Positions 7,251 through 40,569 of a stretch of DNA of 41,131 bases are shown here, one piece after another. This stretch comes from Crocinitomicaceae bacterium (GTDB lineage: Bacteria; Bacteroidota; Bacteroidia; Flavobacteriales_D; Crocinitomicaceae): contig SSGT01000035.1 of NCBI GenBank assembly GCA_008017065.1, forward strand, positions 1-41,131. The letters run 5' to 3'. Position 1 is the first letter of the stretch; every line of letters starts with the position of its first letter. Under the pieces are notes generated by a model, which was not told the DNA's origin, searched no databases, and was given only the letters and a program-made list of their open reading frames with translations. The position numbers and the translations under genes are program-made.

Positions 7251-8201
7251 ATGAAAGTTATCGATCATTTAAATGCTTCTAAATCAACGTTATTTTCTTT
7301 TGAGATTTTACCGCCGTTGAAAGGAAAAAGCATTCAGTCGATATACGATGGCATTGATCCGTTGATGGAGTTTAAACCCAAATACATTAATGTAACCTAC
7401 CACCGCGAGGAGTTTATCTACAAAGAGCGAGAAAACGGATTACTCGAAAAAATTGCGATTCGCAAACGTCCCGGAACAGTTGGAATTTGTGCCGCAATTA
7501 TGAATAAATACGATGTAGATGCCGTTCCTCACCTGATTTGTGGCGGATTTAGCAAGGAAGAAACTGAAAATGCGTTGATCGATTTACAATTTTTGGGTAT
7601 CGATAATGTGTTGGCGTTGCGTGGAGATTCTATTAAAACGGAAGCTTCTTTTCGACCGCATCCAGAAGGACATCGGTATGCAGTAGAATTGATTGGTCAA
7701 GTGGTAGACATGAACAACGGAAACTACTTGACAGAAGATTACCAATTGGAGCCGACGGATTTTTGCATCGGCACCGCAGGATATCCGGAAAAACATTTTG
7801 AAGCGATGAATTTGTCAACCGACTTGATGCATTTGAAAAACAAGGTAGATGCGGGTGCGTCTTACATTGTGACTCAAATGTTTTTTGACAATCAAAAGTA
7901 TTTTTCCTTCGTACGGGCATGCCGTGAAATTGGAATTACTGTGCCAATTTTGCCGGGATTGAAGCCCATTAAAACCCTGGAACACGCGTCGTTTTTACCT
8001 AAGTTTTTTCACATTGATTTGCCGGAAGATTTATCGAAGGAAATTTTGAAGTGTAAAGACAATAAAGCAGTAGCAGAGGTTGGAATCGAATGGGGAATCC
8101 AACAATCCAAAGAATTAAAGGATGCGGGAGTTCCCGGAATTCATTATTACACCATGTCAAATTGTAGCTCAGTGAAAGCAATTGCTGCTGAAATTTTTTA
8201 A
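7251..8201 (+). CDS. metF: Methylenetetrahydrofolate reductase
   Basis: SFEILPPLKGKSIQSIYDGIDPLMEFKPKYINVTYHRE, LALRGD, FDNQKYFSFVRACREIGITVPILPGLKPI. ATG at 7251 preferred over the tracked upstream start. Confidence 0.92.
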   Translation: MKVIDHLNASKSTLFSFEILPPLKGKSIQSIYDGIDPLMEFKPKYINVTYHREEFIYKERENGLLEKIAIRKRPGTVGICAAIMNKYDVDAVPHLICGGFSKEETENALIDLQFLGIDNVLALRGDSIKTEASFRPHPEGHRYAVELIGQVVDMNNGNYLTEDYQLEPTDFCIGTAGYPEKHFEAMNLSTDLMHLKNKVDAGASYIVTQMFFDNQKYFSFVRACREIGITVPILPGLKPIKTLEHASFLPKFFHIDLPEDLSKEILKCKDNKAVAEVGIEWGIQQSKELKDAGVPGIHYYTMSNCSSVKAIAAEIF

Positions 8202-8217
8202 AAATAAATTAGTCCGT

Positions 8218-8754
8218 ATGAAATGTATCGTTTTCTTCCTAACACTGTTTGTTTGTGGTGTTAGCTTTGCTCAAACAAACAACGTCAAGCTAAACAATGT
8301 GTTGGTCGTTGGTCAATTGGATAAATCGGAGGATCGATTTACCTTGGAAATAAACTTTACGGAATTGTTGGCTAACGCTGGAATCAAATCAATGGCTTCA
8401 TTGAACGTGTTGAAACAAGGCTCGAACCCCGCAATTTTAGCAACAGATTCCATTCAAAATATGCTGAAATTGAAAGGAATTGACACCTACGTGTTGGTTT
8501 CTGTTCGCGGCTACGATCGCAAATTTAAACCGGCAAAGAATCACGATAGTTTGTCGGTGGAATTAGCAAGTGGACATTTGTTTCCACTTTACCGTGACGA
8601 GATTTCGTCAATCACCTTTGAGTTTAAATTTTACCGAAACGGAGTTTTTGTAGGCTACGACTTAGTAAAATTGGGTTCCGTAAACTCGAGAGAAGCGGTG
8701 CTGAAAAAATTCCGAAAAAAGATTGGAAAGCGTATTTTGAGTCATTGGAAATAG
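8218..8754 (+). CDS. Hypothetical exported protein
   Basis: ATG at 8218 gives signal peptide MKCIVFFLTLFVCGVSFAQ; no family recognised. Confidence 0.6.
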   Translation: MKCIVFFLTLFVCGVSFAQTNNVKLNNVLVVGQLDKSEDRFTLEINFTELLANAGIKSMASLNVLKQGSNPAILATDSIQNMLKLKGIDTYVLVSVRGYDRKFKPAKNHDSLSVELASGHLFPLYRDEISSITFEFKFYRNGVFVGYDLVKLGSVNSREAVLKKFRKKIGKRILSHWK

Positions 8755-38780: not shown

Positions 38781-39194
38781 CTAGCAGAATTCGTTGTATG
38801 CTTCTGTCAAGTTATCTGCGATCATTTGTGCTGTTCCACCCTCGATGTGGTGTCTTTCCAAGAAGTGAACCAATTCACCATCTTTGAAAAGCGCTATCGA
38901 CGGAGAAGAGGGAGGGTATGGTAAAAAATACTTACGTGCTTGTGCTACTGCTTCGCCGTCAACACCTGCAAAAACAGTCGTCAAATTTGCTGGGATTTTA
39001 TCATTCGCCAAGGATAATTTAACACCTGGACGCATATTCCCCGCTGCACAACCACAGACAGAATTTACAACAACCAATACCGTGCCTTTTGAATTAGGAA
39101 TGGTGGCATCAACTTCTTCTGGAGTTACTAATTGTTTAAAGCCCACTTTAATAAGATCTTCTTTCATTGGGGCAACTAATTGTTCTGGATACAT
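38781..39194 (-). CDS. BrxA/BrxB family bacilliredoxin
   Basis: MYPEQLVAPMKEDLIKVGFKQLVTPEEVDATI; CxC motif VNSVCGCAAGNMRPG; YPPSSPSIALFKDGELVHFLERHHIEG. Confidence 0.93.
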   Translation of the reverse strand: MYPEQLVAPMKEDLIKVGFKQLVTPEEVDATIPNSKGTVLVVVNSVCGCAAGNMRPGVKLSLANDKIPANLTTVFAGVDGEAVAQARKYFLPYPPSSPSIALFKDGELVHFLERHHIEGGTAQMIADNLTEAYNEFC

Positions 39195-39342
39195 ACTTTC
39201 TAAATTTGATTAACACCGAATTTGTAAAATCGATGTGTTTTATTATTACATACAAAAGTAATCAATTCTCAAATCAAAACGAATTTTTGTTGGTATCGAT
39301 TTACCGCAAAAAATACAAATGCATCAACTAGATTGTAGCACG

Positions 39343-39714
39343 CTAGAGAATTATTCTTCGATAGATTAAACCGACTTCTCCAAAATTCACCAATAGTGCC
39401 ACTTTTAAGCCAGATACTTTGAGGTAATTGATCGTCTGTGCGATATGTATTTCGTGCAAACATTTGACACTTTTGATTTCCAAGATAATCTTTCCAAAAA
39501 CAACCATATCGGCGTAAAAGTGATGGTCGAGAATGATGTCCTTGTATTTGACTCTGTATCGCTTTTCAACTTCACAGTCAATATGATTTTCTCTAAATTC
39601 ATGCACTAATGCATCCTTATAAACAACTTCTAAAAATCCAGCCCCTAAATGCTTATGGATCTCCATACAAATCCCGATAATTTTGTAGGTCTCTGATTCA
39701 TAAATTAAATTCAT
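39343..39714 (-). CDS. GxxExxY protein (putative PD-(D/E)XK nuclease superfamily)
   Basis: HKHLGAGFLEVVYKDALVHEF (GFLEVVY = GxxExxY); HHFYADMVVFGKIILEIKSVK (D-x(n)-ExK); AQTINYLKVSGLKVALLVNFG. Confidence 0.92.
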   Translation of the reverse strand: MNLIYESETYKIIGICMEIHKHLGAGFLEVVYKDALVHEFRENHIDCEVEKRYRVKYKDIILDHHFYADMVVFGKIILEIKSVKCLHEIHIAQTINYLKVSGLKVALLVNFGEVGLIYRRIIL

Positions 39715-39805
39715 ACGCGTGTAAATTGGTAGTTAGATTGAAGTTACAAATAAATTTTCAATTAAACGAATAAATTTTTGTTCTACCAATTTTTTCTCAT
39801 TTCAC

Positions 39806-40007
39806 GTTCCCCAACCATCCGTGTCATCCGCGCCATCCGTGGTTCCCTTTCCCCCACCATCCGTGCAATCCGAGCCATCCGTGGTTCCCTTTCCCCCCAA
39901 AGCATCCGTGTCATCCGAGCAATCCTTGGTTCCCTTCCCCCAACAATCTGTGTAATCCGTGCAATCCGTGGTTCCCTTTCCTCAACCATCCGAGCAATCC
40001 GTGGTTC
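39806..40007. repeat. Degenerate tandem array, 42-45-nt units built from 9-mer ATCCGTGNN sub-repeats plus a C/T-rich spacer
   Basis: Units begin at 39814 (42 nt), 39856 (45), 39901 (42), 39943 (42) and 39985 (truncated), with a partial tail before the first. Each full unit is three ATCCGNGNN-like 9-mers followed by TCCCTTTCCCCCAnn. Confidence 0.9.
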
Positions 40008-40035
40008 TAATTCCATTTTTTCTTACTTTTACACC

Positions 40036-40569
40036 ATGGATTTATTAACAGTCAAGTCGCTGCATATTATCTTCGTTGTAAGTTGGTTTGCCGGATTATT
40101 TTATATCGTTCGGTTATTCATTTATCATGTTGAAGCGCAAGAAAAAACAGATGTTGAAAAATCAATTCTTTCCAATCAGTTTATCATCATGCAAAAGAAA
40201 TTGTGGTGGATAATCACAACGCCGGCAATGGTATTGACTGTCATTTTTGGAACATGGATGGTGGTAATTAATCCAAGCTATTTGTATGCTCCGTGGTTTC
40301 AAATCAAGTTGGTATTTGTCTGTTTGTTGCTGATTTACCATTTTTTGTGTCAACGCATCATGATGGAATTCAAGCGTGGTGTTTTCAAATGGAAATCAAC
40401 CCAATTGCGTTTGTGGAATGAATTAGCTACTTTATTTTTGGTAGCTATCGTGTTTTTAGTAGTCTTGAAATCTACCTTCAATTGGATCACGGGAACACTC
40501 GGATTTTTCGGCGTTGCGGTTGGCTTGATGCTTGGAATTCAACTTTACAAAAAGCTGAGATCAAAATAG
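40036..40569 (+). CDS. hemJ: CopD-family protein, protoporphyrinogen oxidase HemJ-like
   Basis: MDLLTVKSLHIIFVVSWFAGLFYIVRLFIYHVEA with four later TMs. ATG at 40036 follows the repeat; the tracked start at 39778 would translate the repeat array. Confidence 0.85.
   Translation: MDLLTVKSLHIIFVVSWFAGLFYIVRLFIYHVEAQEKTDVEKSILSNQFIIMQKKLWWIITTPAMVLTVIFGTWMVVINPSYLYAPWFQIKLVFVCLLLIYHFLCQRIMMEFKRGVFKWKSTQLRLWNELATLFLVAIVFLVVLKSTFNWITGTLGFFGVAVGLMLGIQLYKKLRSK

Follow-up and report, generated by a model that had tools for sequence, protein, structure and literature searches.

RAYT transposases with their REPs and REPINs form the described system with which the locus reported here can best be compared. 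The GxxExxY genes studied here resemble it in forming a single-gene element with inverted repeats at the gene, in having dispersed geneless palindromes in intergenic regions, and in a repeat flavour that is specific to the genome. REPs are 20–40-nt palindromes tagged with GTAG/CGTC (PMC3733652), whereas the repeats at GxxExxY genes (hereafter arms) consist of tandem 9/10-nt units and not of such tagged palindromes; RAYTs are Y1/HUH transposases, whereas the GxxExxY cassette carries a PD-(D/E)XK nuclease. Because both the enzyme class and the repeat type are different, the cassette was regarded as analogous to RAYT/REP and not as a member of that group. The RAYT-type layout, in which the inverted flanking repeat is also dispersed without the gene, was found for the GxxExxY family but not for the copy in the window, by which we mean the whole analysed stretch of 41,131 nt from a Crocinitomicaceae bacterium.

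Several other systems are similar in part. BrickBuilt MITEs of Porphyromonas gingivalis are composed of 23-nt units with an internal minisatellite, and the abstract of that report names no partner nuclease (PMC4596501). MITEs such as BrickBuilt are alike in carrying no gene, in lying between genes of Bacteroidota and in having inverted ends, but the geneless hairpins described below share their kind of arm with gene-bearing copies. Rpn/transposase_31 proteins, which carry transposase-like annotations and have been connected with gene transfer (PMC5350276, PMC10327210), are small nucleases like the GxxExxY protein, but they belong to Pfam PF04754, whereas the window protein matched PF13366 only. 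DDE insertion sequences are comparable in being short units with terminal inverted repeats (at the family level), same-genome copies and empty sites, but the ∼480-bp cassette holds the nuclease gene only, with no DDE transposase, and its arms are tandem iterons. A homing endonuclease of an intron or intein differs in its location, since GxxExxY copies sit between genes and not inside a host gene. To our knowledge, no inverted iteron arms have been described for Rpn, and no function for GxxExxY proteins. In the open-access literature the family is rarely mentioned, no mention concerns repeats, and no account was found of a GxxExxY–repeat association or of such nuclease-plus-inverted-repeat elements. 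One lead for CACGGATT (PMC4060949) was rejected, as the match was an unrelated example string.

The preliminary description of the window had proposed a GxxExxY gene, and this gene, at 39343..39714 on the minus strand, was confirmed by matches of its 123-aa product to TIGR04256 GxxExxY (E = 3.9e-39, 133.6 bits, cut-off 35) and PF13366 PDDEXK_3 (E = 1.3e-35, 122.7 bits, cut-off 22), the only matches in the family scan. Alignment of 66 proteins gave the invariant columns G26, E29, Y32, D69, E79, K81, Q93 and Y97, and E79 was kept in 81/82 members of a larger protein set. The active-site residues E29, D69, E79-x-K81 and Q93-x3-Y97 are all present in the window protein, and judged from the alignment these residues make up a predicted PD-(D/E)XK site that includes the Q-x3-Y motif of the RecB type. 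Its AlphaFold2 model had a mean pLDDT of 96.6 and matched Cas4 SSO0001, LHK-Exo, ACE1, MGME1 and lambda exonuclease, the TM-scores being modest at about 0.4–0.6 (for the Cas4 structure 4ic1, E = 6.6e-4). The likeness to nucleases of the Cas4/RecB/lambda-exonuclease type (SSO0001, LHK-Exo, ACE1, MGME1) extends to the fold, the active site and the Q-x3-Y motif; in contrast to Cas4, the GxxExxY protein has 123 aa only, and none of its invariant or nearly invariant columns is a cysteine that could bind an iron-sulphur cluster. According to the model, the protein has a minimal fold of the Cas4/lambda-exonuclease kind with a predicted intact active site. No solved homologue of the window protein was found by sequence. 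With one protein as query, phage records and viral contigs gave no match, and a few plasmid records contained distant homologues.

The five-unit array that had been noticed upstream of the gene was also recovered, at 39806..40007, with unit starts at 39817, 39859, 39904, 39946 and 39988 (spacing of 42, 45, 42 and 42 nt); its distance from the start codon, given previously as about 90 nt, was measured to be 92 nt. The units, degenerate ATCCGTGNN 9-mers plus a C/T spacer, are on the plus strand ATCCGTGTCATCCGCGCCATCCGTGG (39817..39842), ATCCGTGCAATCCGAGCCATCCGTGG (39859..39884), ATCCGTGTCATCCGAGCAATCCTTGG (39904..39929), ATCTGTGTAATCCGTGCAATCCGTGG (39946..39971) and the truncated fifth, ATCCGAGCAATCCGTGGTT, with two 9-mers only (39988..40007). 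Tandem Repeats Finder reported a period of 42 with 4.6 copies and a score of 251 at 39807–40001. The source assembly has 2.4 Mb and is 73% complete; in it the pattern of three 9-mers (≤2 mismatches) occurred four times, each time inside the window array, and the reversed control 0 times. Read on the minus strand, the unit is AACCACGGATNNCACGGATNNCACGGAT followed by a G/A-rich spacer, which is the canonical orientation of an upstream arm by the rule obtained from other GxxExxY loci. The segment missing in three congeners spans approximately 39280..40012, with ends uncertain by about 20 nt, and lies between a bacilliredoxin gene (BrxA/BrxB family, 38781..39194, minus strand) and hemJ (protoporphyrinogen oxidase HemJ, 40036..40569, plus strand). 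Past unit 5, similarity to the congeneric genomes returns within a few nt. An open frame on the plus strand (39778–40569) runs from the array into hemJ, with the repeats translated as IRVIRAIRG; hemJ may thus be wrongly extended through the array by automatic annotation.

On the other side of the gene, ATTTACCGCAAAAAATACAAAT (39299..39320, plus strand), with the tip ACCGC and two degenerate units 9 nt apart, is a candidate decayed downstream arm. It lies near the end of the similarity to the congeners, and the tip-like match is weak, being seen in 34/2000 shuffles. A search for the right arm by its similarity to the left arm gave a score of 8, below the shuffle mean of 9.5, and an intact second arm is therefore not claimed. 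The best explanation is that the window copy is a partly decayed cassette, with the downstream arm missing or unrecognisable and the upstream arm expanded five-fold, and it is in these two respects atypical.

The assembly contains a second GxxExxY gene, which had not been mentioned before, flanked on both sides by further tandem arrays whose units are different (G000:C67:265-591, within locus L007 at G000:C67:1-1330). One side carries an array of a 50-nt unit containing GGCATATGAG twice and the other side an array of a 109-nt unit, and the two sides are mutually inverted (score of 16.5, 0/500 shuffles). This was the first hint of a rule that is independent of the CACGGAT sequence. The arms, of which the 50-nt array has CATATGAGG units, are thus inverted but follow a grammar other than CRCRRAD. 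Inverted repeats flanking GxxExxY in L046 (∼1900–2900) and L110 (∼7900–8500), CGAAAAACGAAA and CGTGTTCAGAC, hint at further arm grammars.

Tandem Repeats Finder applied to GxxExxY loci of unrelated Bacteroidia revealed 9/10-nt tandem repeats adjoining many of the genes. Their sequences differ, but a common grammar was recognised, C-R-C-R-R-A-D combined with two or three free bases; units tallied by a regular expression with some positions fixed were most often CGCAAAG, CACAGAG, CGCAGAG, CACAGAT and CACAAAG, mostly spaced by 8–11 nt. Across 82 Bacteroidia regions with 86 GxxExxY genes, 31 array clusters fell upstream and 26 downstream of the genes at distances of up to 250 nt, as against 11 in the about 1 Mb at distances of 1–8 kb. 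This corresponds to 1.2–1.4 clusters per kb within 250 nt of a gene versus ∼0.011 per kb at 1–8 kb, an approximately 100-fold difference, and the reversed control found one cluster in total in the same regions. The clusters are unevenly distributed, with a strict array within 300 nt of 27/83 full-length genes. Genome-wide, 5/81 of the clusters listed were within 1.5 kb of a gene when 0.15 were expected (p = 5e-7). In 247 genomes of the class, the generalised pattern had hundreds of matches versus a handful for the reversed control. A GxxExxY gene was detected in 159/247 of these Bacteroidia genomes, with up to about 20 matches per genome. Strict arrays were present in 47/247, and the gene was found in 42/47 genomes with arrays compared with 117/200 of the others (p = 3.5e-5). 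In L089, L095, L052 and L060 the cassettes are located roughly 1 kb or less from where a contig ends; assemblies seem to break at the repeats, so that copy numbers are probably underestimated.

The typical arms, which the preliminary description had not recognised, are inverted and placed on both sides of the gene, with C-R-C-R-R-A-D units upstream and their reverse complement downstream. A typical cassette is ∼480 bp long; three to four degenerate 9/10-nt units form its upstream arm, which is followed by the gene and the inverted downstream arm, as in L057, which reads TTAACCACAGAGAACACGGAGGAGGCACAAAGGACACAAAGAA-ATG...TAA-AACTCCGTGTTCTCTGTGAAATTCTTCGTGAACTCTGTGGTTAAA in the orientation of the gene. 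In the 83-gene set the left and right arms of the same locus matched each other with a mean score of 14.05, compared with 8.48 when partners were swapped and 7.6 when flanks at a distance of 1.2 kb were used, and this mean was reached by 0/20,000 permutations, although only 36/83 genes had an arm score of ≥14. The result was replicated at 77 loci of named records (15.5 vs 11.0 vs 7.8; 0/20,000 permutations), which are mostly from Bacteroidota but include individual MAGs assigned to Acidobacteriota, Planctomycetota, Marinimicrobia and further groups, assignments that may be erroneous for MAGs; the two data sets come from different collections with some species possibly common to both. Left and right arms covaried at unit positions 2, 5 and 7 (r = 0.94, 0.85 and 0.82; permutation maxima of 0.39–0.52), but not at position 4 (0.27). 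When the arm flavour (CAC or CGC) was mapped on the protein tree, 12 changes were required, as against a mean of 28.4 and a minimum of 22 in 300 shuffles. All 26 inverted pairs with a gap of >200 nt enclose GxxExxY and no other gene, a biased count, given that the presence of GxxExxY was the criterion for sampling these regions.

From these observations and those that follow, the GxxExxY gene and its inverted repeat arms are probably a single mobile nuclease cassette, represented in the window by a copy in partial decay. The supporting points, i.e. the enrichment, the match of the arms within a locus, presence and absence, the unrelated flanks of copies and purifying selection, all come from comparison among loci and genomes.

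Occupied and empty sites, which may reflect gain or loss, were found in three settings. In the aldehyde-dehydrogenase gap, the two genes are 1–2 nt apart and have no cassette in three genomes (L125, L128, L129), whereas the gap is 479–550 nt long with a cassette in four genomes (L123, L124, L126, L127, L132). The empty aldehyde-dehydrogenase sites showed no residual palindrome, which means that gene and arms come and go together. The proteins encoded in this gap are scattered over several places of the protein tree, and this suggests, judging from the tree of a short protein, repeated and apparently independent insertion. L123 (G212:C55) and L132 (G212:C12), which have different flavours, occupy the same aldehyde-dehydrogenase gap in one genome bin with an estimated contamination of 4%, so the pair could reflect either repeated insertion or bin contamination. 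The gap before a paaG-like gene contains a cassette in G133 (L153), and among the 30 loci listed the paaG-like gene follows a short gap without a cassette at, e.g., L154, L156, L158–L163 and L165, with L154 and L158–L161 among the congeners of G133 whose site is empty; because some loci have a different downstream gene and L157 is cut by a contig end, we speak of several empty sites and give no fixed number. At the window site, bacilliredoxin and hemJ are adjacent in the congeners L119–L121, and the gene and the array are both absent. The gap in L119–L121 contains a different repeat-like stretch, AGACATTAGAC... and CCGACGAAGTCA..., which is why the ends of the window segment are uncertain; repeats of more than one kind may be drawn to this gap. 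Neither a target-site duplication nor an excision footprint could be defined at the occupied and empty sites read, where tips like TTAACC/GGTTAA merge with the AT-rich targets.

The suggestion made in the preliminary description, that protein and repeats form one unit comparable to RAYT and REP, is supported by the enrichment and by the joint absence of gene and arms. It had named two outcomes that would speak against it, arrays without enrichment near GxxExxY genes and loci that keep the gene but never the repeat, and neither of them occurred. The repeat unit, which it had described as CACGGAT-type, belongs to a variable CRCRRAD family and is not CACGGAT alone.

Dispersed copies were analysed in G007, where two copy pairs share 88% identity over 460 nt and 90% over 484 nt; the similarity stops at the arms and the flanks are unrelated. 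The dN/dS values of these pairs were 0.09 and 0.15, indicating purifying selection that has kept the nuclease functional. Gene and arms are conserved about equally in the L210/L220 pair. In L207/L212 (G007:C46, G007:C1) the nuclease region is 88% identical, but the arms are CACAAAG-type in one and CGCAAAG-type in the other, changed at both ends. Such a joint change is not predicted by a simple fixed specificity between protein and arm, and suggests conversion between arms or entry of the gene into a different palindrome.

Arms were also found without the gene. In G123, G211 and G107 there are dispersed hairpins made of two inverted arms and a short loop with no gene; inspection showed three to four 9-mers per arm and tips like GCCGCAGAT. 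Being short, geneless and dispersed with inverted ends, they have the properties of MITEs. The near-perfect hairpins of G107, a genome in which no GxxExxY gene was detected, gave a DNA folding energy of −53.8 kcal/mol for the example folded, compared with −12.2 for shuffles. Altogether, five genomes contain arrays but no detectable gene, implying that arms can also be maintained or disseminated in some other way. G170, also with arrays and no detectable GxxExxY gene, has mainly a CACAAAAGT microsatellite, which is probably unrelated.

These hairpins, and the L207/L212 pair with its gene far better conserved than its arms, raise the alternative that the arms are independent intergenic palindromes of the REP or MITE kind, spread by another enzyme of the host or of an element, with the GxxExxY gene as a passenger or homing gene in the loop. 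The flavour switch and the arrays in gene-free genomes leave it some weight, but on the whole we consider it unlikely: the empty aldehyde-dehydrogenase sites lack a palindrome, the arms and gene of L210/L220 are about equally conserved, flavour tracks the protein tree, and the wide inverted pairs, in the GxxExxY-chosen regions, enclose this gene only.

The arms might instead form an RNA stem around the gene in the transcript, controlling its translation, stability or processing in a host operon, with no function in mobility. It was observed that 65/69 genes between tandem neighbours are co-directional with both of them (p = 3e-15), that the arms adjoin the start and stop codons of the GxxExxY gene, and that the first arm unit begins no more than 15 nt from the stop codon before it in 35/49 cases, all of which would suit such a stem. 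Nevertheless, the orientation bias is equally explained by selection for transcription from the host operon, which is its simplest reading. G-U-compatible mismatches on the mRNA strand numbered 114 versus 190 of the A-C type (a count that A-rich left arms may bias), and the RNA-stem reading is weakened by these counts. It also leaves unexplained the empty sites, the dispersed copies with unrelated flanks and the geneless hairpins, and we judge it improbable. In a third alternative, the nuclease gene would serve phage defence or DNA repair, and the repeats would be an ordinary intergenic tandem expansion that stands beside it in the window by coincidence. This would agree with the window copy's lack of a significant inverted partner arm and with its minisatellite-like five-fold amplification, but it is contradicted at the family level by the same grammar at GxxExxY genes of many families, by permutation tests far beyond chance and by the inverted arrays of the second gene of the genome, and is very improbable.

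Under the mobile-cassette explanation, the cassette would enter short intergenic gaps, usually directly behind a stop codon and along the host transcript. The nuclease would recognise arms of its own flavour, either as duplex iterons or as single-stranded-DNA hairpins during replication, and would cut at the element, while joining would be performed by host replication or repair. The geneless hairpins with the same kind of arms would be non-autonomous relatives. We tentatively put forward the further possibility that these are autonomous elements in which a solitary Cas4/lambda-exonuclease-like PD-(D/E)XK nuclease recognises terminal inverted 9/10-nt iteron arrays, inserts its own gene between other genes and disseminates geneless hairpins in trans, without a DDE, HUH, tyrosine, serine or Cas1-type recombinase.

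The GxxExxY family thus has the appearance of a minimal mobile element of a kind not described before. If its members are mobile cassettes, a large and common family would gain a role, and widespread intergenic repeats of Bacteroidota would gain a partner enzyme. The mobilisation of DNA by a lone Cas4-like nuclease would then become directly testable with a unit of ∼480 bp.
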